The position numbers and the translations under genes are program-made. The notes under the pieces are model-generated. The model was not told the DNA's origin. It was given only the letters and a program-made list of their open reading frames with translations, and made no database searches. Source: Streptomyces sp. NBC_01197 (GTDB lineage Bacteria; Actinomycetota; Actinomycetes; Streptomycetales; Streptomycetaceae). From it: a DNA stretch of 64,000 nucleotides. The stretch is taken from contig NZ_CP108569.1 in NCBI RefSeq assembly GCF_036010505.1, positions 2,792,001 to 2,856,000 of the forward strand, written 5' to 3'. Position 1 is the stretch's first letter. Each line of letters opens with the position of its first letter. This document shows, one piece after another, positions 3,365-12,555 of this stretch.

Positions 3365-4348
3365 GTGGTTAAGCTCTCCGTCATCGTGCCGTTCTACAAC
3401 GTGCAGACATACGCCCCCGACACCCTCAGAAGCCTCCGCGCGAACGCACGCGACGACTTCGAGTTCCTGCTCGTCGACGACTGTTCGACGGACGGGACCC
3501 CGGAGATCCTCGAACGTGCGGAGCGCGAGCTTCCCGGGGCCGTCCTGCTGAAACACCGGGAGAACGGAGGACTCGCCACCGCCCGCAACACCGGGCTCGA
3601 CGCGGCGAGCGGCGAATACATCACCTTCCTGGACGGGGACGACTGGCTCGCCCCCGGGTACTACGAGCGGCTGCTCGCCGACATGGAGGCGCTGGGCTGC
3701 GACTTCGTCCGCACCGACCATGTGCAGTGCATGGGCAGCACGCGTACGGTCCACCGGGTCCCGTACGGCAGGCGCGGCGAGGTCACCGTTCCGCGCGAGG
3801 TGATTCTGCCCGCCGACCGCTCCACCCCGGTCGACTACGCGTACGCCTGGGCCGGTATGTACCACCGCAGGCTGCTGGACCGCGGGCTGCTGCACTTCAC
3901 CCACGGGCTGCGCACCGCCGAAGACCGCCCGTGGATCTGGCGGCTGCACAGGGAAGCGGAGTCATTCGCCGTACTCGGGCTGCTGGGAATGTTCTACCGG
4001 CGCGGTGTCGCCTCGTCCCTCACACAGATCGGCGACGTGCGCCAGCTCGATTTCATCCGCGCATTCGACCAGGTTATCGACGAAACATCGAAAGACCCGG
4101 AAGCCGATCTCCTTCTTCCCAAGGCCGTGCGCACCTATTGCGCGATTATTTCGCACCACTTGGGCTCCATCGAAAGGTTCGAACCAGCCGTGGCACGTAA
4201 ATTGCGGACGCTCAGCGCGGCCGCGCTGAAACGGATGCCGCAGGATCTGCTGAGCGACGCGCTCGACTCGATGGACACCGCGCGCGCCTCGCGTCTGCGG
4301 CGGCTGCGCCGCCGTCCGGCCTCGCTGACGACGGAGGCCGCAGCGTGA
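3365..4348 (+). CDS. Family 2 glycosyltransferase
   Basis: This 327-aa GT-A fold enzyme has the classic GT2 motifs. KLSVIVPFYN is at the N-terminus, VDDCSTDGT near residue 40 binds the nucleotide, and LDGDDW near residues 89-94 supplies the metal-binding DXD. A charged, helix-rich C-terminus follows, with no membrane segment. It probably adds sugars to a wall glycopolymer or its linkage unit at the inner membrane face; donor and acceptor are unknown. Its GTG start fits the leaderless promoter just upstream, and its stop overlaps the next gene by 4 nt (GTGA), indicating translational coupling. It is divergent from the neuB/neuA operon. Confidence 0.9.
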   Translation: MVKLSVIVPFYNVQTYAPDTLRSLRANARDDFEFLLVDDCSTDGTPEILERAERELPGAVLLKHRENGGLATARNTGLDAASGEYITFLDGDDWLAPGYYERLLADMEALGCDFVRTDHVQCMGSTRTVHRVPYGRRGEVTVPREVILPADRSTPVDYAYAWAGMYHRRLLDRGLLHFTHGLRTAEDRPWIWRLHREAESFAVLGLLGMFYRRGVASSLTQIGDVRQLDFIRAFDQVIDETSKDPEADLLLPKAVRTYCAIISHHLGSIERFEPAVARKLRTLSAAALKRMPQDLLSDALDSMDTARASRLRRLRRRPASLTTEAAA

Positions 4349-5727
4349 CGACGTCGCCCGCCCGTGGAACCGATACGCCCCACGCAGCCCGTACACCCCG
4401 CACGACGCAGATCTTCTACGCCTCCACGCTGTACGGAGCCGCCACCCTGGCCGCCGCGATCGACAGCGGCTGCTTCGACTCCGCCGACCGGCGACTGCTG
4501 CTGGTCAGCAACAACGCGGCGATCCCGGAGACCACTCCCGCGCTGGACGCGATGCCCGGTTTCGAGCAGCTGCGCCACCGGTTCGACGGCGTGCTCTCCT
4601 GGAACGACACCATCGAACCGCTGCACCCGGGCGGCTGGTCGCCGCGCACCGACGACATTCCGCTGTGGGAACGGCAGTTGAGGCTCCTCTGGGACCTCGG
4701 TGACGACCGGATCGAGCTGGCGGTCGAGTCCGTCCAGGTCAACCCGGCGCAGGCGCTGGCCCTGCTCTTCCAGGACGCGCCGGTCACGGTGTACGCGGAC
4801 GGGCTGATGTCGTACGGCCCGACGCGCAACAAGATCGATCCGTTGATCGGCACCAGGATCCGGCGGCTGCTCCATCTGGACCTGGTGCCCGGTCTGAAGC
4901 CGCTGCTGCTCGCCGAGTTCGGGGCCGAGCCGGAGATCGTGCCGGACGCCGCCTTCCGCAAGGTACTGGGCGAGCTGGCCGAGTCCGTGACGAGCCTGCC
5001 CGAGTGCGCGGAGCCTCCGGCGCTGCTGCTCGGCCAGTACCTCTCGGCGCTGGAGATCCTCACTCCGCAGGAGGAGGAGGACCTCCATGTACGGATGCTG
5101 CGCGGGGCGGTCGCGCTCGGCCACCGCACGGTCGTGTTCAAGCCGCACCCGACGGCGCCGGCCCGCTGGTCGCGGCTGCTGGAGCGGGAGGCGGAGCAGC
5201 TGGGCGCCGAGCTGACCGTACTGGACGAGCCGTTGCTCGCCGAGACACTGTACGAACGGACGCACCCGGCGCTGGTGGTCGGCTGCTTCTCCACCGCGCT
5301 GCTGACGGCGAGCGCCTTCTACGGGATCCCGGTCGCCCGCACCGGTACCGAGCTGCTGCTGGACCGGCTCGCCCCGTACCAGAACAGCAACCGGGTCCCG
5401 GTGACCATCGTCGACGCACTGCTGCCAGCGCTGGAGGACGCCGGAGCCCCGGCCGGGGCCGCGTCCGCCGACGATCTGCCGGGGCTCGTCGCCGCCGTCG
5501 GCTTCGCGATGCAGCCGCAGCTGCGGCCCGATCTGCGTCCGGCGGCCGAGGCGTACCTGAGCCGCCACCTGGACGCCCACACCTGGCGCTACTTCAAGCG
5601 TCGCCGGCTGACCGTGCTGGGGCTGCCGGGCGCGCTGCCGGCCCAGCTCGCCTTCATCCCGCGCAACGCGACGGTACGACGGGTGGCCCGGCGGGCCCGC
5701 TCCCTCAAGAGAGTCGCGCTCGGATGA
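4345..5727 (+). CDS. Alpha-2,8-polysialyltransferase-family protein
   Basis: This 460-aa protein matches the polysialyltransferase-like family (Pfam A-2_8-polyST) common in actinomycetes. It begins with QIFYASTLYGAATLAAAI and has VYADGLMSYGPTRNKID in the middle. Near residues 265-270 lies KPHPTA, the HP motif that binds the CMP leaving group in bacterial polysialyltransferases, followed by VVGCFSTALLTA. With neuA and neuB beside it, a role in polymerising a CMP-activated nonulosonic acid is a reasonable inference, but acceptor and linkage are unproven. The start (GTG 4345) and the stop each overlap a neighbour by 4 nt, so the three plus-strand genes form one tight operon. Confidence 0.8.
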   Translation: MTTSPARGTDTPHAARTPRTTQIFYASTLYGAATLAAAIDSGCFDSADRRLLLVSNNAAIPETTPALDAMPGFEQLRHRFDGVLSWNDTIEPLHPGGWSPRTDDIPLWERQLRLLWDLGDDRIELAVESVQVNPAQALALLFQDAPVTVYADGLMSYGPTRNKIDPLIGTRIRRLLHLDLVPGLKPLLLAEFGAEPEIVPDAAFRKVLGELAESVTSLPECAEPPALLLGQYLSALEILTPQEEEDLHVRMLRGAVALGHRTVVFKPHPTAPARWSRLLEREAEQLGAELTVLDEPLLAETLYERTHPALVVGCFSTALLTASAFYGIPVARTGTELLLDRLAPYQNSNRVPVTIVDALLPALEDAGAPAGAASADDLPGLVAAVGFAMQPQLRPDLRPAAEAYLSRHLDAHTWRYFKRRRLTVLGLPGALPAQLAFIPRNATVRRVARRARSLKRVALG

Positions 5728-7073
5728 CCCCTGCCCCGGCCTCCGTGCCGCTGCCCGCCGCGGTCCCGTCGCCGGTGCCCGCGGCGGCGGCCCCGGGCCA
5801 GGACGCCGGCCCCGCCCCCGCGCCCGGTTCCGCCGACGCCGCACCCCTTCCGATACCGGACCCGCCCGTATCCGACGGACCGCTGCCGATACCGGACCCG
5901 CCCGTATCCGACGGACCGCTGCCGATACCGGACCCGCCGATACCCGGCTCACCGCTGCCGATGCCCACCGCGCGTACCGGCCCCGGTCGGACCGCCCGCG
6001 CGGGCGGCCGGCTGCGCGCGCTCGACGGACTGCGGCTGGTCGCCGCCCTGATGGTCGCCGCGTACCACTACGGCGGCCGGGACGGCGACATCAGCAGGGC
6101 CTGGGGCGGGTCGCCGCGCCACCAGTTCCCGACACTCTCCGAGTGGTTCGCCTACGGCTGTCTCGGTGTGCAGATCTTCTTCGTCATCAGCGGTTTCGTG
6201 ATCTGCATGAGCGGCTGGGGCCGGCCGCTGCGCTCCTTCTTCGCCTCCCGGGTCTCCCGCCTCTACCCGGCGTACTGGGCGGCGATCGTGATCGTCACGG
6301 CGACGTTCGCACTCCCCTGGGTCGCGTACCGGACGGTCTCGCCCAGCGACGCGCTGGTAAACCTCACCATGCTCCAGCAGCCGGTCGGCGCCGAGCGGGT
6401 CCTCGGTGTGTGCTGGACCCTCTGGGCCGAGCTGCGCTTCTACGCGCTCTTCGCCCTCTGCGTGGTGCTGCCCGGCGCCAACCGGCAGCGAGTCCTGGTC
6501 TTCTGCGGGGTGTGGACCCTGGCCGCCGCGATCACCGACGCGGTGCATCAGCCGATGCTGAGCATGGTGCTGATGCCGGAGTACGCGCCGTTCTTCATCG
6601 GCGGGATCGGTCTCTACCTCCTGCACCGCGACCGGCTGGACGTCATCGCCTGGGGCGTCGTCGGCGTCAGCTGGGCGATCGGCCAGCACTACGCGGTCGC
6701 CGGTCTGTGGCACCGGGCCGATCCGGCGTTCTTCTCCTACCGGCACACCATGGTGATCGTCGCCGTGGTCACGCTGGGCTTCGTGCTGGTCGGCGCGGTG
6801 GCACTCGGTTTCTTCCGCTGGGCCGACTGGCGCTGGCTGACGGTCGCCGGGGCGCTCACGTACCCCTTCTACCTGGTGCACGAGCATCTGGGCTGGGTAG
6901 TGGTGGCCGTACTCCACCGGAAGCTGGGGATCCCCTCGTACGGCACGCTCGTTCTGACCGTCGCGCTGATGCTGGGGCTGGCCTGGCTGCTCAACCGCTA
7001 CGTCGAGAACAGGCTGACGCCGGTACTGCGCGGGGCGCTGTCCAGGAGGGTCAGTTCCACGGGGAGCGGGTGA
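5724..7073 (+). CDS. Membrane acyltransferase 3 family protein (OafA/YrhL type)
   Basis: This 449-aa protein has a Pro/Ala-rich cytoplasmic tail of about 95 residues followed by a roughly ten-helix acyltransferase-3 domain. The domain opens with RALDGLRLVAALMVAAYH, which carries the catalytic-type histidine, then GVQIFFVISGFVI. Such proteins O-acetylate or acylate cell-surface glycans. ATG 5724 overlaps the preceding stop by 4 nt (ATGA), which settles the start; longer in-frame reading upstream lies within the previous gene. The tail contains 12-residue repeats (LPIPDPPVSDGP twice, then a variant). Operon context suggests it decorates the polymer made by the preceding transferases. Confidence 0.88.
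   Translation: MTPAPASVPLPAAVPSPVPAAAAPGQDAGPAPAPGSADAAPLPIPDPPVSDGPLPIPDPPVSDGPLPIPDPPIPGSPLPMPTARTGPGRTARAGGRLRALDGLRLVAALMVAAYHYGGRDGDISRAWGGSPRHQFPTLSEWFAYGCLGVQIFFVISGFVICMSGWGRPLRSFFASRVSRLYPAYWAAIVIVTATFALPWVAYRTVSPSDALVNLTMLQQPVGAERVLGVCWTLWAELRFYALFALCVVLPGANRQRVLVFCGVWTLAAAITDAVHQPMLSMVLMPEYAPFFIGGIGLYLLHRDRLDVIAWGVVGVSWAIGQHYAVAGLWHRADPAFFSYRHTMVIVAVVTLGFVLVGAVALGFFRWADWRWLTVAGALTYPFYLVHEHLGWVVVAVLHRKLGIPSYGTLVLTVALMLGLAWLLNRYVENRLTPVLRGALSRRVSSTGSG
5850..5957 (+). repeat. 36-bp in-frame tandem repeat, 3 copies
   Basis: Two identical 36-bp units (5850-5885, 5886-5921) and a diverged third (5922-5957), with a partial fourth, encode LPIPDPPVSDGP-type dodecapeptides in the acyltransferase N-terminal tail. 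Confidence 0.9.
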
Positions 7074-7497
7074 CGGCCAACCGGGGCTGGGAGTGGGGTC
7101 AGTTGGTGCACAACCCGGCGTGCCGACGTGGCATCACAGTGACGGGGAAGGCACCTGGCCTGCGCGGCTGTAGCCCTGGCTCTGGTCTTCGTACGGTTCG
7201 ACGCGCCTGCCCCGCGCTGGGGACATCCGTCGGCCCTCGGCGCGGCCGCCGATACCGCCGGGCCGCGGATCCTTGCCTGCCGCGTGGCACCACGCTTCAC
7301 CGCGGAGCACGACGCTAACCGTCGTGGCCGTGCGCTGGGGGCGTGCGGGGTTGGGGGCAATGATCCGTCCGGTACTCCGCGCGCCCTCCCCGGCACGACG
7401 GGCCGCCGTAATGATGAGCGGACCGCACGTGCTCGAGGATCCAGCGACTCCGCATACCTGTCCTCGGCAGGTGGACATGCGGTGGAAGGAACCCACG
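7074..7497 (+). promoter_or_regulatory. Intergenic region before the furan-synthase operon, with an imperfect inverted repeat
   Basis: This 424-bp stretch has no convincing gene. The notable element is at 7451-7481: CGCAT plus ACCTG on the left, CAGGT and ATGCG on the right (inner arms 7456-7460 and 7468-7472, outer arms 7451-7455 and 7477-7481). It lies just upstream of the GGAAGGA ribosome binding site at 7484-7490. It could be an operator or an mRNA stem. No clear -10/-35 pair was identified. Confidence 0.35.
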
Positions 7498-8253
7498 TTG
7501 TTGCTTCTCATCTCCCCCGACAGTGTCGAAGAGGCCCGCGACTGTGTGAAGGCGGCGGAACACCTCGACATCGTCGATGTCAAAAGGCCCGAAGAGGGCT
7601 CGCTCGGCGCGAACTTCCCCTGGGTCATCAGGGAGATCCGTGATGCGGTCCCCGCGGACAAGCCGGTGTCCGCCACGGTGGGAGACGCACCGTACAAGCC
7701 CGGCACGGTGGCCCAGGCGGCGCTCGGCGCAGCTGTCTCCGGGGCCACGTACATCAAGGTCGGCCTCTACGGATGCACGACGCCCGAGCAGGCCGTCGAT
7801 GTCATGTGCGGGGTGGTCAGGGCGGTGAAGGACTACAGGCCGGACGCGTTCGTGGTCGCTTCGGGGTACGCCGACGCCCACCGCATCGGCTGCGTCAACC
7901 CGCTCTCGCTGCCCGACATCGCCCGCCGGTCCGGTTGCGACGCGGCCATGCTCGACACCGCGATCAAGGACGGGACACGGCTCTTCGACCATGTCCCGAC
8001 CGACGTCTGCGCGGAGTTCGTCGGGCTGGCCCACGGGGCCGGTCTGCTCGCCGCACTCGCAGGGAGTGTCAAGGTTGGTGATCTCGGTGCGCTGACCCGT
8101 ATCGGCACGGACATCGTGGGGGTACGCGGTGCGGTCTGCGAGGGAGGTGACCGCAGGACGGGAAGGATCCAGCCGCACCTGGTGGCCGCCTTCCGGGCCG
8201 AGATGGACCGGCATGCCCGGGAATACGCGGCGACCACCGTCACCGCGAACTGA
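7498..8253 (+). CDS. MfnB-like (5-formylfuran-3-yl)methyl phosphate synthase
   Basis: This 251-aa TIM-barrel protein is of the MfnB family, which condenses two glyceraldehyde-3-phosphate molecules into 4-(hydroxymethyl)-2-furancarboxaldehyde phosphate in archaeal methanofuran biosynthesis. All four active-site positions known from the Methanocaldococcus enzyme are present with a constant +2 offset: Lys29 in [13 protein letters not shown], Lys87 in YIKVGLYG, and Asp153 and Lys157 in [10 protein letters not shown] chose the TTG at 7498 because it gives the canonical MLLLISP start 7 nt after GGAAGGA; ATG 7477 is an alternative. It heads a cluster with two dehydrogenases and a methyltransferase, and no methanofuran-type aminotransferase is present. 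Confidence 0.88.
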
Positions 8254-8261
8254 CCGCCGGC

Positions 8262-9665
8262 ATGCCGACCAGCAGACCCGGTCGCGCGCCGGCGCCACGC
8301 AGTGAGTGCTTCGCCGTCCTCGATCCTGCGACGGGTACGCCCTTCGCCGAGGCCCCCGACCAGCAGCCGGACGAGCTGGACGCCGTCGTCGAGCAGGCTC
8401 ACGAGGCCTGGCTCGGCTGGCGGGCCGACCCCATAACCCGCTCCAAGGCGCTGTTCACGGCTGCCGACGCCGTGGAGACGGCCGGGGCCCGGCTCGCCCC
8501 GCTGCTCACCCGTGAACAGGGCAAACCCCTGGCCGATTCGTACGCCGAGGTCGCCCGCGCGGCGGCCCGGCTGCGCTACTTCGCCGAGCCGCTCCCGGGG
8601 CCGCAGAAGATCACGGACGGCCGGCCGGTACGCAGCGAGGTCCACTGGCGACCGCTCGGGCCCGTCGCCGCGATCGTCCCGTGGAACTTCCCTCTTCAGC
8701 TTGCGTCGGCGAAGTTCGCGCCCGCGCTCGCCGCGGGCAATACGGTGGTGCTCAAGCCCTCCCCGTACACCCCCCTCGCCACCCGGCTGCTGGCGTCCGT
8801 CATGTCCACCGCGCTCCCGGAGGGGGTACTGACGGTCGTCACCGGTCACGAACCCCTCGGCGCCCGCCTCGCGGCCCACCCGGGGATCCGTCATGTGACC
8901 TTCACCGGTTCGGTGCCCACCGGGCGGGCCGTCGCGGCGGGCGCGGCCGCCTCGCTCGCGCGGGTCACCCTGGAACTGGGCGGCAACGACGCCGCCGTCC
9001 TGCTGGACGACGTGGAGGTGGAGCGGATCGCGGAACGGCTGTTCTGGGCGGCGTTCCGCAACTGCGGGCAGGTCTGCATGGCGGTCAAGCGGGTCTACGC
9101 CCCGGCCCGGCTCCACTCCCAGGTGGTCGAGGCCCTCGCGCACCATGCCAAAACCGTCGTCGTCGGGGCCGGGCTCGATCCGGGCACGCAGCTGGGGCCG
9201 GTCAACAACGCCCCGCAACTGGCACGGGTCGAGAGCTACACGGCCCAGGCCCTGGCGGACGGCGCCAGGGCCGCGGCCGGTGGCCACCGGCTGGACCGGC
9301 CGGGCTACTTCTTCGCCCCGACCGTTCTGTCCGATGTCCCGCCCGCCGGGCCGCTGGTGACGGGCGAACAGTTCGGACCGGTCCTGCCGGTACTGCCGTA
9401 CAGCAACCTCGACGAAGCCGTCGATGCGGCCAACGGCACCGGGTTCGGTCTTGGCGGCTCGGTATGGGGGGCCGACCTCGACCGGGCCGAGGAGGTGGCC
9501 GGGCGGCTGGAGTGCGGCACGGCCTGGATCAACCACCACGCCGAAATCTCTCTCGCCCAGCCCTTCGCGGGCATCAAGGAGAGTGGAGTCGGCGTCGCGG
9601 GCGGGCCGTGGGGGCTGTACGGAAACCTCAGGCCGTTCGTCGTGCACCGCCCGGAGGAAGCGTGA
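8262..9665 (+). CDS. NAD(P)-dependent aldehyde dehydrogenase
   Basis: This 467-aa ALDH-superfamily enzyme has IVPWNFPLQ for cofactor binding and FTGSVPTGR. The general base is Glu238 in TLELGGN and the nucleophile is Cys272 in NCGQVCMA. It would oxidise an aldehyde to a carboxylate. It begins 8 nt after mfnB and ends in a GTGA overlap with the alcohol dehydrogenase, so all three are one transcription unit. The natural substrate is not visible in the sequence; context makes the furan-2-carboxaldehyde product of MfnB the obvious candidate. Succinate-semialdehyde or aromatic aldehydes remain alternatives. Confidence 0.9.
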   Translation: MPTSRPGRAPAPRSECFAVLDPATGTPFAEAPDQQPDELDAVVEQAHEAWLGWRADPITRSKALFTAADAVETAGARLAPLLTREQGKPLADSYAEVARAAARLRYFAEPLPGPQKITDGRPVRSEVHWRPLGPVAAIVPWNFPLQLASAKFAPALAAGNTVVLKPSPYTPLATRLLASVMSTALPEGVLTVVTGHEPLGARLAAHPGIRHVTFTGSVPTGRAVAAGAAASLARVTLELGGNDAAVLLDDVEVERIAERLFWAAFRNCGQVCMAVKRVYAPARLHSQVVEALAHHAKTVVVGAGLDPGTQLGPVNNAPQLARVESYTAQALADGARAAAGGHRLDRPGYFFAPTVLSDVPPAGPLVTGEQFGPVLPVLPYSNLDEAVDAANGTGFGLGGSVWGADLDRAEEVAGRLECGTAWINHHAEISLAQPFAGIKESGVGVAGGPWGLYGNLRPFVVHRPEEA

Positions 9666-10756
9666 CGACGCGGTTCGGGGCGGCGGTACTGCGCTCGTAC
9701 GAGAGCCGCTTCGCCCTGGAGGAGGTGGCCCTGAACACCGGACCGGCCGACGGCGAGATCCTGGTCAGGATCGCCGGCTGCGGGATGTGCCGGACCGATC
9801 TCGCGGTCCGTCGTTCGGCCGGCCGCTCACCGCTGCCTGCCGTGCTCGGCCACGAAGGGGCCGGAGTCGTGGTGGGGACCGGCGGCCCGGCCACCGGCCT
9901 GAGCAGCGGCGACCATGTCGTGCTGAGTTTCGACTCCTGCGGGCACTGCCGGAACTGCACGGGCGCGGCCCCCGCCTACTGCGACTCCTTCGCCTCGCTG
10001 AACCTCTTCGGCGGACGCGAGGAGAACGCGGGCCGGTTCACCGACGCGGCCGGGAACGCACTGGCCCCCCGGTGGTTCGGCCAGTCCTCGTTCGCCGAGT
10101 ACGCGATGGTCCCCGCCCGCAACGCCGTACGGGTCGATCCCTCGCTGCCCGTCGAACTCCTCGGGCCGCTCGGCTGCGGATTCCTCACCGGCGCCGGAGC
10201 GGTCCTCAACTCCTTCGGCGTCCGCCCCGGTGACACACTCGCGGTGTTCGGCGCGGGCGCGGTGGGCCTGGCCGCGGTGATGGCGGCCGGCGCGGCCGGA
10301 GCGGTGACCGTGGCCGTCGACCGGCACCCGGAACGGCTGGCCCTCGCCGAGCGGCTGGGCGCGATCCCGCTGGACGTCGCGTCGCCCGGCCTGGCCGACC
10401 GCATCCGGCGACTCACCGACGGCGGTGCGCGGTACGCCCTGGACACCACGGGCTCCGTCCGGCTGATCAACGACGCACTCAGGGCCCTCCGCCCGACCGG
10501 CCACCTCGGTCTGGTGGCACGGCTCCACACCACGCTGCCACTCGACCCGGGGGCGCTCGACCGGGGCCGGAGGATCTCCCACATCTGTGAGGGGGACGCG
10601 GTACCAGGCCTGCTGATTCCACGGCTGACCGGGCTGTGGCAGTCCGGGCTCTTCCCTTTCGACCAGCTGATCCGTACGTACCCGCTCGCCGACATCAACG
10701 AGGCCGAACGCGACTGCGACGCTGGCCGCGTGGTGAAACCCGTCCTGATTCCGTAG
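9662..10756 (+). CDS. Zinc-dependent alcohol dehydrogenase (aryl/benzyl alcohol type)
   Basis: This 364-aa medium-chain dehydrogenase starts at GTG 9662, overlapping the ALDH stop by 4 nt. Catalytic zinc ligands lie in GCGMCRTD and LGHEGAG. A cysteine-rich structural zinc loop (SCGHCRNC, then AYC) and the NAD-binding FGAGAVGLAAV follow. The overall pattern is nearest to NAD-dependent aryl-alcohol dehydrogenases. With MfnB and ALDH it could interconvert a furfuryl alcohol and aldehyde, for example at the 4-hydroxymethyl group. That assignment is inference from gene order. Confidence 0.88.
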   Translation: MTTRFGAAVLRSYESRFALEEVALNTGPADGEILVRIAGCGMCRTDLAVRRSAGRSPLPAVLGHEGAGVVVGTGGPATGLSSGDHVVLSFDSCGHCRNCTGAAPAYCDSFASLNLFGGREENAGRFTDAAGNALAPRWFGQSSFAEYAMVPARNAVRVDPSLPVELLGPLGCGFLTGAGAVLNSFGVRPGDTLAVFGAGAVGLAAVMAAGAAGAVTVAVDRHPERLALAERLGAIPLDVASPGLADRIRRLTDGGARYALDTTGSVRLINDALRALRPTGHLGLVARLHTTLPLDPGALDRGRRISHICEGDAVPGLLIPRLTGLWQSGLFPFDQLIRTYPLADINEAERDCDAGRVVKPVLIP

Positions 10757-10885
10757 GGGAAGGGGCGGGGGTGGTGAGCGCCCCGCTGCCCTCCCGCCCG
10801 ACCGGTTGGCCGAGCGGCCGACCGACCGGTGCGTGATCCCTGTTTCCCGCTTTTCGTGGTCCCTGCTCGTACCAACGGAGGACGC

Positions 10886-11794
10886 ATGACCGGCACAGCA
10901 CATCGGAGCACCAGTGCGGAGGGCGTAGCGGGGGGTGTCGGTCTGACCGCTCTCCTGGTCGCCGCGGCACGGGCGATCGAGACTCACCGCGACGACAGCC
11001 TGGCGCAGGACGTCTACGCGGAGCACTTCGTGCGCGCCGCACCGGCGTGCGCGGACTGGCCAGTCCGCCTGCGGCAGGTCCCGGACGGGGACGCGGACCC
11101 GCTGTGGGGACGTTTCGCCCGCTACTTCGGCCTGCGGACGCGGGTCCTGGACGATTTCCTGCTGCGGTCGGTTCGCGAGGGGGGCGCCCGTCAAGTCGTC
11201 CTGCTCGGCGCCGGGCTGGATACGCGGGCCTTCCGGCTCGACTGGCCTCCCGGCTGCGTGATCTTCGAGATCGACAGAGAAGGCGTACTGGCCTTCAAAC
11301 ACCAGGTGCTCGACGGGCTGGCGGCCGCCCCGAAGGCCACGCGCGTACCAACCCCCGTCGACCTGCGTGCCGACTGGGCCGGAGCACTGACCGGCGCGGG
11401 CTTCGACCCGGCGGCGCCCAGCGTGTGGCTGGCCGAGGGGCTGCTGTTCTACCTGCCCGTCACCGCCGAGACCCACCTCATCGACACGGTGGACCGGTTG
11501 AGCACCGGGGGAAGCGCCCTGGGGTTCGAGGTCAAGCTCGACAAGGACCTGCTGGAACACCGCGACAGCCCGCTCTACACCTCCACGAAACAGCAGATCG
11601 GCATCGACCTGCTCGACCTGTTCGACCGGGCGCCGCGACCCGACTCCGCGGGTCGCCTGGGGAGCAGGGGCTGGTCCACATCGGTCCACACCCCCTTCGA
11701 ATTCACTCATCGCCACGGCCGCGGCCCGCTGCCCGAGCCGAACGACGCACTGCAGGGCAACCGTTGGGTGTTCGCGAACAAACCCCGGCGGTGA
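10886..11794 (+). CDS. LCM/TIGR00027-family SAM-dependent O-methyltransferase
   Basis: This 302-aa class I methyltransferase has the leucine-carboxyl-methyltransferase-like signatures VVLLGAGLDTRAFRL (SAM-binding loop, near residue 105), FEIDREGV, and LAEGLLFYLP near residue 190. Family members methylate carboxylates or hydroxyls of small molecules. ATG 10886 follows a strong ribosome binding site (GGAGGAC). It lies 130 bp after the alcohol dehydrogenase on the same strand with no evident terminator, so it may belong to the furan cluster. A carboxyl-methyl ester of a furoic acid is an attractive but untested product. Confidence 0.82.
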   Translation: MTGTAHRSTSAEGVAGGVGLTALLVAAARAIETHRDDSLAQDVYAEHFVRAAPACADWPVRLRQVPDGDADPLWGRFARYFGLRTRVLDDFLLRSVREGGARQVVLLGAGLDTRAFRLDWPPGCVIFEIDREGVLAFKHQVLDGLAAAPKATRVPTPVDLRADWAGALTGAGFDPAAPSVWLAEGLLFYLPVTAETHLIDTVDRLSTGGSALGFEVKLDKDLLEHRDSPLYTSTKQQIGIDLLDLFDRAPRPDSAGRLGSRGWSTSVHTPFEFTHRHGRGPLPEPNDALQGNRWVFANKPRR

Positions 11795-11865
11795 CGCGGC
11801 AATCAGAAGGGGCTGTGAAGGGGCGGGCTGTGAAGCGGCTTGCTCTGCTACCTCAGACTGCTGCC

Positions 11866-12555
11866 TCAGACGCTGCTGAGCGAGAGCTTCACCGCGAAGC
11901 CCAGGAAGAGCGCGCCCGCCGCCGTCGTCATCCCGGCGGAGAGACGCCTGCGGCGCCGGAAGGCGGCGGCGAGGCGGGTGCCGCCGAATATCAGCAGGGT
12001 GAGGTAGAGGAAGCTCGCCAGCTGCGCCAGCCCGCCGAGCACCACGAAGGAGAGCGCCGGGTAGGCGTAGTGCGGGTCGACGAACTGCACGAAGAACGAG
12101 ATGAAGAAGAGGATCGCCTTCGGGTTGAACAGGCTGACCACCAGGGCCCTGCGGTACGGCCGCTCCAGCGCGGTCGTCTGCTCGCCGGTGGTCTCCGCGG
12201 TAGCGCCGGTGGTCTCCGCGGCCCCCTCGCTCCGGTCGCGCCGGTCGCGCCGGTCGCGCCAGAGAGCGCGGGCCGTGCGGACCATGCCGAACGCCAGATA
12301 CGTCAGGTAACCGGCGCCCGCGTACTTCACCAGGCCGAACAGCAGCGGGTTGGCCTGGAGCAGCGAGGCTACTCCCGCGGCGGAGAGGGTCATCAGCACG
12401 GTGTCCCCGCAGAACACCCCGGCGGCCGCCGTGTATCCGGTGCGGACGCCGCGCCGGGCGGCGACCGAGAGCACATACAGCGAGTTGGGGCCCGGCAGCA
12501 GAATGATCAGCGCAAGGCCGGCGAGATAGGTCGGGAGATCCGTGACACCGAGCAT
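11866..12555 (-). CDS. LysE/RhtB-family amino-acid exporter, LeuE-like
   Basis: This 229-aa integral membrane protein has about six helices. It carries the family signature LPGPNSLYVLSVAARRGVR near residue 20 and SLFNPKAILFFISFF near residue 147. Family members export amino acids such as leucine or homoserine. The central cytoplasmic loop (about residues 100-125) is expanded by short repeats (DRRDRRDR, then TTGATAETTGEQTT) encoded by tandem DNA repeats around 12185-12260. It is convergent with the methyltransferase and separate from the mutase gene upstream. Confidence 0.87.
   Translation of the reverse strand: MLGVTDLPTYLAGLALIILLPGPNSLYVLSVAARRGVRTGYTAAAGVFCGDTVLMTLSAAGVASLLQANPLLFGLVKYAGAGYLTYLAFGMVRTARALWRDRRDRRDRSEGAAETTGATAETTGEQTTALERPYRRALVVSLFNPKAILFFISFFVQFVDPHYAYPALSFVVLGGLAQLASFLYLTLLIFGGTRLAAAFRRRRRLSAGMTTAAGALFLGFAVKLSLSSV

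Follow-up and report, generated by a model that had tools for sequence, protein, structure and literature searches.

What does a Streptomyces do with an enzyme known for making part of an archaeal coenzyme? The question is raised by a stretch of 64,000 nucleotides (hereafter the window) from the 7.7-Mb genome of Streptomyces sp. NBC_01197 (contig NZ_CP108569.1, positions 2,792,001 to 2,856,000), where four genes on the forward strand (7498-11794 of the window) begin with a homologue of mfnB. In methanogens, MfnB makes the furan of methanofuran, its reaction giving (5-formylfuran-3-yl)methyl phosphate (4-HFC-P; PMC6604932). Here an archaeal-type mfnB heads a mobile gene set, which we call the cassette, in a well-studied antibiotic-producing genus, and about a quarter of the sampled Streptomyces genomes have it. 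We suggest, with a probability of roughly 0.55, that the cassette is a complete small-molecule pathway, in which MfnB would provide a furan, two dehydrogenases would oxidise it to a carboxylate and a methyltransferase would make the methyl ester. The genes are:

7498..8253, + strand: mfnB, predicted 4-HFC-P synthase, 251 amino acids (aa), TTG start
8262..9665, + strand: aldehyde dehydrogenase (ALDH), 467 aa, dispensable cassette member
9662..10756, + strand: zinc alcohol dehydrogenase of the aryl-alcohol type (ADH), 364 aa, GTG start
10886..11794, + strand: S-adenosylmethionine (SAM) methyltransferase of the LCM/TIGR00027 family (MT), 302 aa

A predicted archaeal-type furan synthase

The initial annotation, made from the sequence of the window, had recognised an MfnB with four active-site residues, each at +2 relative to the archaeal enzyme, and had spaced the genes by 8 bp, a 4-nt overlap and about 130 bp. 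Both descriptions hold. The gap between mfnB and ALDH has 8 bp, ALDH and ADH overlap by 4 nt and 129 bp separate ADH from MT, while the +2 offset is consistent with the alignment to MJ1099 of M. jannaschii (4rc1, 4u9p; E 2.2e-84), with 61% identity over 229 residues. MfnB, which is the sole PF04476 match in its own genome, scores 270 bits with this profile (cut-off 22.4) and 393 bits with the NF002573 equivalog (cut-off 341). The expected active-site set (two Lys and two Asp, including the Schiff-base Lys27 in archaeal numbering) is present, and Asp27, Lys29, Lys87, Asp153 and Lys157 do not vary across the 81 sequences compared, those of the window and of 80 named loci (kept out of 209 found). 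Given the identity to the characterised archaeal enzyme and these invariant residues, MfnB is predicted to convert two molecules of glyceraldehyde-3-phosphate into 4-HFC-P, sharing family and probable reaction with the enzyme of methanofuran biosynthesis. All 80 named loci have an NTG codon (58 TTG, 21 GTG and 1 ATG) at the position of the TTG start, which supports it; for several close relatives the annotated protein has 258 aa, and the equivalent start here would be the ATG at 7477.

A different triose-phosphate aldol reaction, with the cassette working as a detoxification or carbon-overflow route, seems quite improbable to us. It is general knowledge that class I aldolase chemistry could diverge and that ADH and ALDH pairs are common in aldehyde detoxification, but the similarity to MJ1099, the invariant catalytic residues and a score above the equivalog cut-off argue for the MfnB reaction, and detoxification needs no methyltransferase.

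Other bacteria also have PF04476 enzymes. The homologue on an A. lipoferum plasmid has 36% identity with the window MfnB, the Streptomyces protein being nearer the archaeal one, and 22 plasmid matches outside Streptomycetaceae have only 29 to 38%. We presume that the homologues of Azospirillum and other proteobacteria stand in a methylofuran context. In Streptomyces, the furan could in principle be the start of a similar methanofuran- or methylofuran-like one-carbon carrier, as it is in the methanogens (PMC6604932), but we regard this as very improbable. The formylmethanofuran:H4MPT formyltransferase (PF01913) has no match in the genome, with two control archaea positive, and the distribution of the cassette is patchy and partly plasmid-borne. 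No aminotransferase or ligase is in the conserved set or annotated in four plasmid regions that carry the cassette. MfnC in particular is missing among the conserved neighbours and in these four regions, the whole genome not having been searched for it. The initial annotation was thus right to see a context other than methanofuran and no MfnC nearby: ADH, ALDH and MT stand in place of the aminotransferase branch, and no use for methanofuran was detected.

Linkage, distribution and mobility

From 295 analyzed Streptomyces genomes, PF04476 matches were found in 73, of which three weak partial ones inside longer frames (G080, G108 and G228) were dropped, leaving 70. A second, sub-threshold match in G094 was also dropped, and G224 was counted despite having mfnB in two fragments. 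With the window ADH as query (E up to 1e-100), an orthologue of at least 77% identity was found in 69 of the 70 mfnB genomes, matched in G119 only over residues 160-364, and in none of the 225 others; the sole other match is a 54% paralogue, in a genome also carrying the orthologue. All 70 have MT, with at least 73% identity. At most 2 kb separate ADH from mfnB in 67 of the 69 genomes (in the remaining two, the genes are on separate contigs), and MT is no farther than 1 kb from ADH in as many, with G100 (3 kb) and G119 (another contig) as exceptions. Conservation of the gene order across genomes had been proposed in the initial annotation as a check, and the linkage is indeed consistent.

The same was observed in the named loci, counted by tblastn since the gene caller missed mfnB in 3 loci and some ALDHs. 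L064 and L079, which have only 152 and 366 bases of sequence beyond mfnB, were left out; ADH and MT are present in all 78 loci with sequence downstream of mfnB, MT being on the opposite strand in 10 and farther away in two (L050 and L096). Of the resulting 79 cassettes (these 78 and that of the window), every one has a full-length mfnB and a full-length ADH without stops, and none lacks MT. When the neighbourhoods were clustered (111 sources, 108 with a called mfnB), ALDH was found in 96, MT in 77, ADH in 75 and an EF-hand gene in 28, the lower counts for ADH and MT being due to 30 loci at most 3.7 kb long. The linkage of the four genes is far from chance. There is no other constant neighbour, every further family being near mfnB in at most 8 of the 108 sources. 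No phosphatase was found among the conserved neighbours, in agreement with the lack of a dedicated one first described for the window, and no conserved receptor, regulator, transporter or assembly gene goes with the cassette.

The three dropped matches (E 5.8e-8 to 5.8e-7; G080:C1:143867-144313, G108:C1:3281665-3282114 and G228:C1:2630173-2630622) cover the first half of the profile in frames of 481 to 570 aa, and are perhaps a distant family. A decaying cassette is found at G224:C1:514005-518186, consisting of two mfnB fragments, a partial ALDH and part of MT; no ADH was found.

In 26 of 81 sources the EF-hand gene accompanies the cassette, located by MT or upstream of mfnB (for instance, L037:13778-14311 and L056:10821-11354). 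We rejected it as a fifth member, the window having none and the best match in the genome being only 32% identical, and treat it as an optional companion.

In the class as a whole, the mfnB family was found in 6 of 394 genomes (137 genera), all in the genus of the window. Elsewhere it is known from Kitasatospora and Actinacidiphila (named loci), Streptantibioticus (plasmids) and Embleya (protein search). The four cassette proteins co-vary (Mantel r 0.73-0.82, each p 0.005 at 199 permutations; 67 full cassettes), and the correlation of mfnB DNA with rpoB DNA is weak (r 0.25, p 0.009; the 30 genomes whose mfnB scored best). Among plasmids, mfnB was found with 83 to 92% identity in 13 records from Streptomyces and Streptantibioticus, two of these records belonging to the same Streptantibioticus strain. 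We opened six plasmid regions, two of them unannotated (one from Azospirillum and one from Streptantibioticus). The four annotated regions, all from Streptomyces, contain the whole set, one on a 70-kb circle, where Tn3-family transposase genes and an EF-hand gene are found next to it, and the others on linear plasmids of 240, 377 and 846 kb; the EF-hand gene is present in three of the four (L173-L175). The simplest reading is that the cassette is transferred as a unit.

Proposed oxidation and methylation after MfnB

We infer every step that follows MfnB. Once this enzyme had fused two glyceraldehyde-3-phosphates, a general phosphatase outside the cassette would remove the phosphate from the product, ADH would oxidise the furan methanol so released, ALDH would take the furan aldehyde to a furan carboxylate and MT would cap the acid as a methyl ester. 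Where ALDH is lost, another of the many ALDH genes of the host might replace it. The products would be methyl esters of 4-(hydroxymethyl)- or 4-formyl-furan-2-carboxylic acid, or of furan-2,4-dicarboxylic acid.

The enzyme families named in the initial annotation are borne out by profile scores and nearest structures. ADH belongs to PF08240/PF00107, with 5tnx and 1f8f (benzyl alcohol dehydrogenase) as the nearest solved chains. Its zinc ligands are kept in 79 of 79 copies, Cys43, His64 and Cys172 being presumably catalytic and Cys93, 96, 99 and 107 presumably structural. The residue that follows the second Rossmann-fold strand, at the NAD ribose position, is Asp in 78 of 79 and Glu in one; an Asp here is usual for NAD enzymes, from which we infer that ADH works in the direction of oxidation. 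An enzyme dependent on N,N-dimethyl-4-nitrosoaniline (TIGR03989) was considered and rejected, the window ADH scoring 183 bits, below the cut-off of 440. The pairing with ALDH resembles that of 1f8f-type benzyl alcohol dehydrogenases, whereas the pair in the cassette adjoins a furan synthase and a methyltransferase.

ALDH (PF00171, 453 bits; nearest solved chain 8yen) keeps Cys272 and Glu238, which we take to be the catalytic positions, in all 69 full-length copies. It is absent or partial in the other 10 of 79 cassettes (L036, L038, L040, L059, L063, L068, L077, L085, L106 and L110), although partial copies such as that of L068 may come from draft errors. Similarly, it was not found (E up to 1e-140) in 8 mfnB genomes of the 295. 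The distance from mfnB to ADH (75 to 860 bases) is too short for it in G059, G093, G096, G264 and G293, G163 has a contig break, and in G082 and G119 there is enough room, ALDH reading in G082 as two overlapping pieces (L008). As the member most often lost, ALDH leaves MfnB, ADH and MT as the constant core. The interpretation first proposed for the window was therefore right in outline and wrong in the weight it gave to ALDH.

MT scores 183 bits with PF04072 and 254 bits with TIGR00027 (cut-off 93.55), and the SAM motif GxGxDxR is kept in 79 of 79. The nearest solved chains are 6id6 (Rv0731c) and 2ckd (ML2640), actinobacterial members of the same family with the same motif, from which MT differs in its constant association with mfnB. 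The LCM relatives whose function is known (LCMT1 and TcmP) methylate carboxylates, and by analogy the methyl acceptor of MT would be a carboxylate.

Several observations weigh against the pathway to a methyl ester. The loss of ALDH amounts to 8 parsimony changes on the MfnB+ADH+MT tree, 4 of them forced by well-supported branches (shuffled presence labels need 9.6 on average), and its repeated absence indicates that the pathway can do without a dedicated aldehyde oxidation. ADH might work in the direction of reduction, and no phosphatase is linked to the cassette. Since TIGR00027 is a broad family and Rv0731c and ML2640 are named only as putative methyltransferases, a carboxylate is only a candidate acceptor for MT. 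MT paralogues in 15 genomes without mfnB show that the family is not furan-specific. Two cassette MTs (G127 and G059) have one internal TGA, and that of L108 was matched only over residues 1-256.

In another reading the core pathway stops earlier, MfnB and ADH yielding a furan alcohol or aldehyde, with ALDH as an optional side branch and MT methylating a hydroxyl or other group. This is possible, if rather unlikely. It fits the full-length MfnB and ADH and the MT found in 79 of 79 cassettes (one MT partial) alongside repeated losses of ALDH. Nevertheless, the known LCM relatives act on carboxylates, the catalytic residues are intact in the ALDH retained by 69 of 79 cassettes, and a first look gave 29 to 86 ALDH candidates per genome in the genomes displayed, so that a substitute could be at hand.

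The surroundings of MT paralogues were also examined. These paralogues have 48 to 71% identity and most are in the 15 genomes without mfnB; of 20 matches at or below 71% identity, the surroundings of 14 were fetched, 13 from genomes without mfnB and one from an mfnB genome (G121). An EF-hand gene is close to the paralogue MT in 13 of the 14. In 8 of the 14 (L132-L139) there is a second conserved set, formed by an EF-hand protein, an isocitrate/isopropylmalate-dehydrogenase-like protein, an isochorismatase-family hydrolase and an LCM MT, its families being named by Pfam for one locus (L132), while L129, L131 and L140-L142 have only the EF-hand protein and MT. A hydroxy-acid dehydrogenase beside the paralogue MT would fit a carboxylate substrate, which is only suggestive; the PF00180 match of this Iso_dh-like protein is confined to its C-terminal part.

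It is also conceivable that the furan of the cassette is a building block, elaborated by unlinked genes into a larger natural product of a kind that Streptomyces often assemble. PMC7581861 reports the S. coelicolor mfnB (SCO6440) to be up-regulated in an abrB1/B2 mutant, together with redG and ecrA1, which would suit this idea. We find it doubtful, since no assembly-line or coupling gene is conserved alongside, the context varies freely and the four annotated plasmid regions have no such partner.

Returning to the oxidised and methylated product, that no transporter, receptor or assembly gene is constant agrees with a small molecule able to leave the cell unaided. The methyl ester and the diffusible signal suggested in the initial annotation are still conjectural. 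We tentatively go further, at clearly less than even odds, and picture the cassette as a self-contained, plasmid-mobile "furan hormone" module, spread among strains by horizontal transfer, whose diffusible and possibly volatile 2,4-disubstituted furan, oxidised and methyl-esterified, would be a signal or antibiotic made by about a quarter of the genus. Small furan carboxylic acids used as signals are described for Streptomyces, as the methylenomycin furans of the MmfL-H-P system of S. coelicolor (PMC6604932 and PMC11070956), but no MmfL/AfsA-type synthase was found by Pfam scan among the four cassette genes and four flanking ones. Flufuran, a furan carboxylic acid of similar size class, is reportedly disputed as a fungal product (PMC6539386 and PMC6891502). 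A maleimide probe for furans has been described (PMC11070956), and might extend to 2-furoates.

The initial annotation spoke of an undescribed pathway, and we too found no description of one in Streptomyces in the literature covered, which was partial and left out most subscription journals; an apparent mention of DUF556 in PMC10364804 refers to DUF5565 and is irrelevant. Having no assembly-line genes, such a route would be easily overlooked. If true, it would be a new enzymatic way from central metabolism to furan natural products, and a source of enzymes from aerobic bacteria for bio-based furans.

The leader and the genes upstream

Upstream of mfnB, the alignments define the following features:

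7298..7497, + strand: conserved leader/promoter region of the cassette
7410..7427, + strand: conserved 18-base block AATGATGAGCGGACCGCA, with one exact copy in the genome
7484..7491, + strand: ribosome-binding site GGAAGGAA

The leader, of about 200 bases, is kept with the cassette in otherwise unrelated surroundings, as observed in an alignment of 79 named loci and the window; a second alignment comprised 37 loci and the window. A regulon defined by AATGATGAGCGGACCGCA was discarded, the genome having 4 sites within 3 mismatches (1 exact, 1 with 2 and 2 with 3) against 1 for the reversed control. A structured leader RNA was also set aside: a small hairpin before the ribosome-binding site has weak covariation (11 pairs, 2 changed on both sides), folding is little better than that of shuffled sequences (mean z -0.59 over 80 leaders), and Rfam gave no match at E up to 1 in 6900-12000. 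Control by bldA was likewise rejected, TTA codons being rare in the matched copies (6 of 81 for mfnB, 6 of 74 for ALDH, 2 of 79 for ADH and 1 of 80 for MT).

Farther upstream, at 3365-7073, there are genes for a family 2 glycosyltransferase, an alpha-2,8-polysialyltransferase-family protein (PF07388, 119 bits) and an acyltransferase. They form a surface-glycan-like set and lie outside the families conserved beside mfnB.

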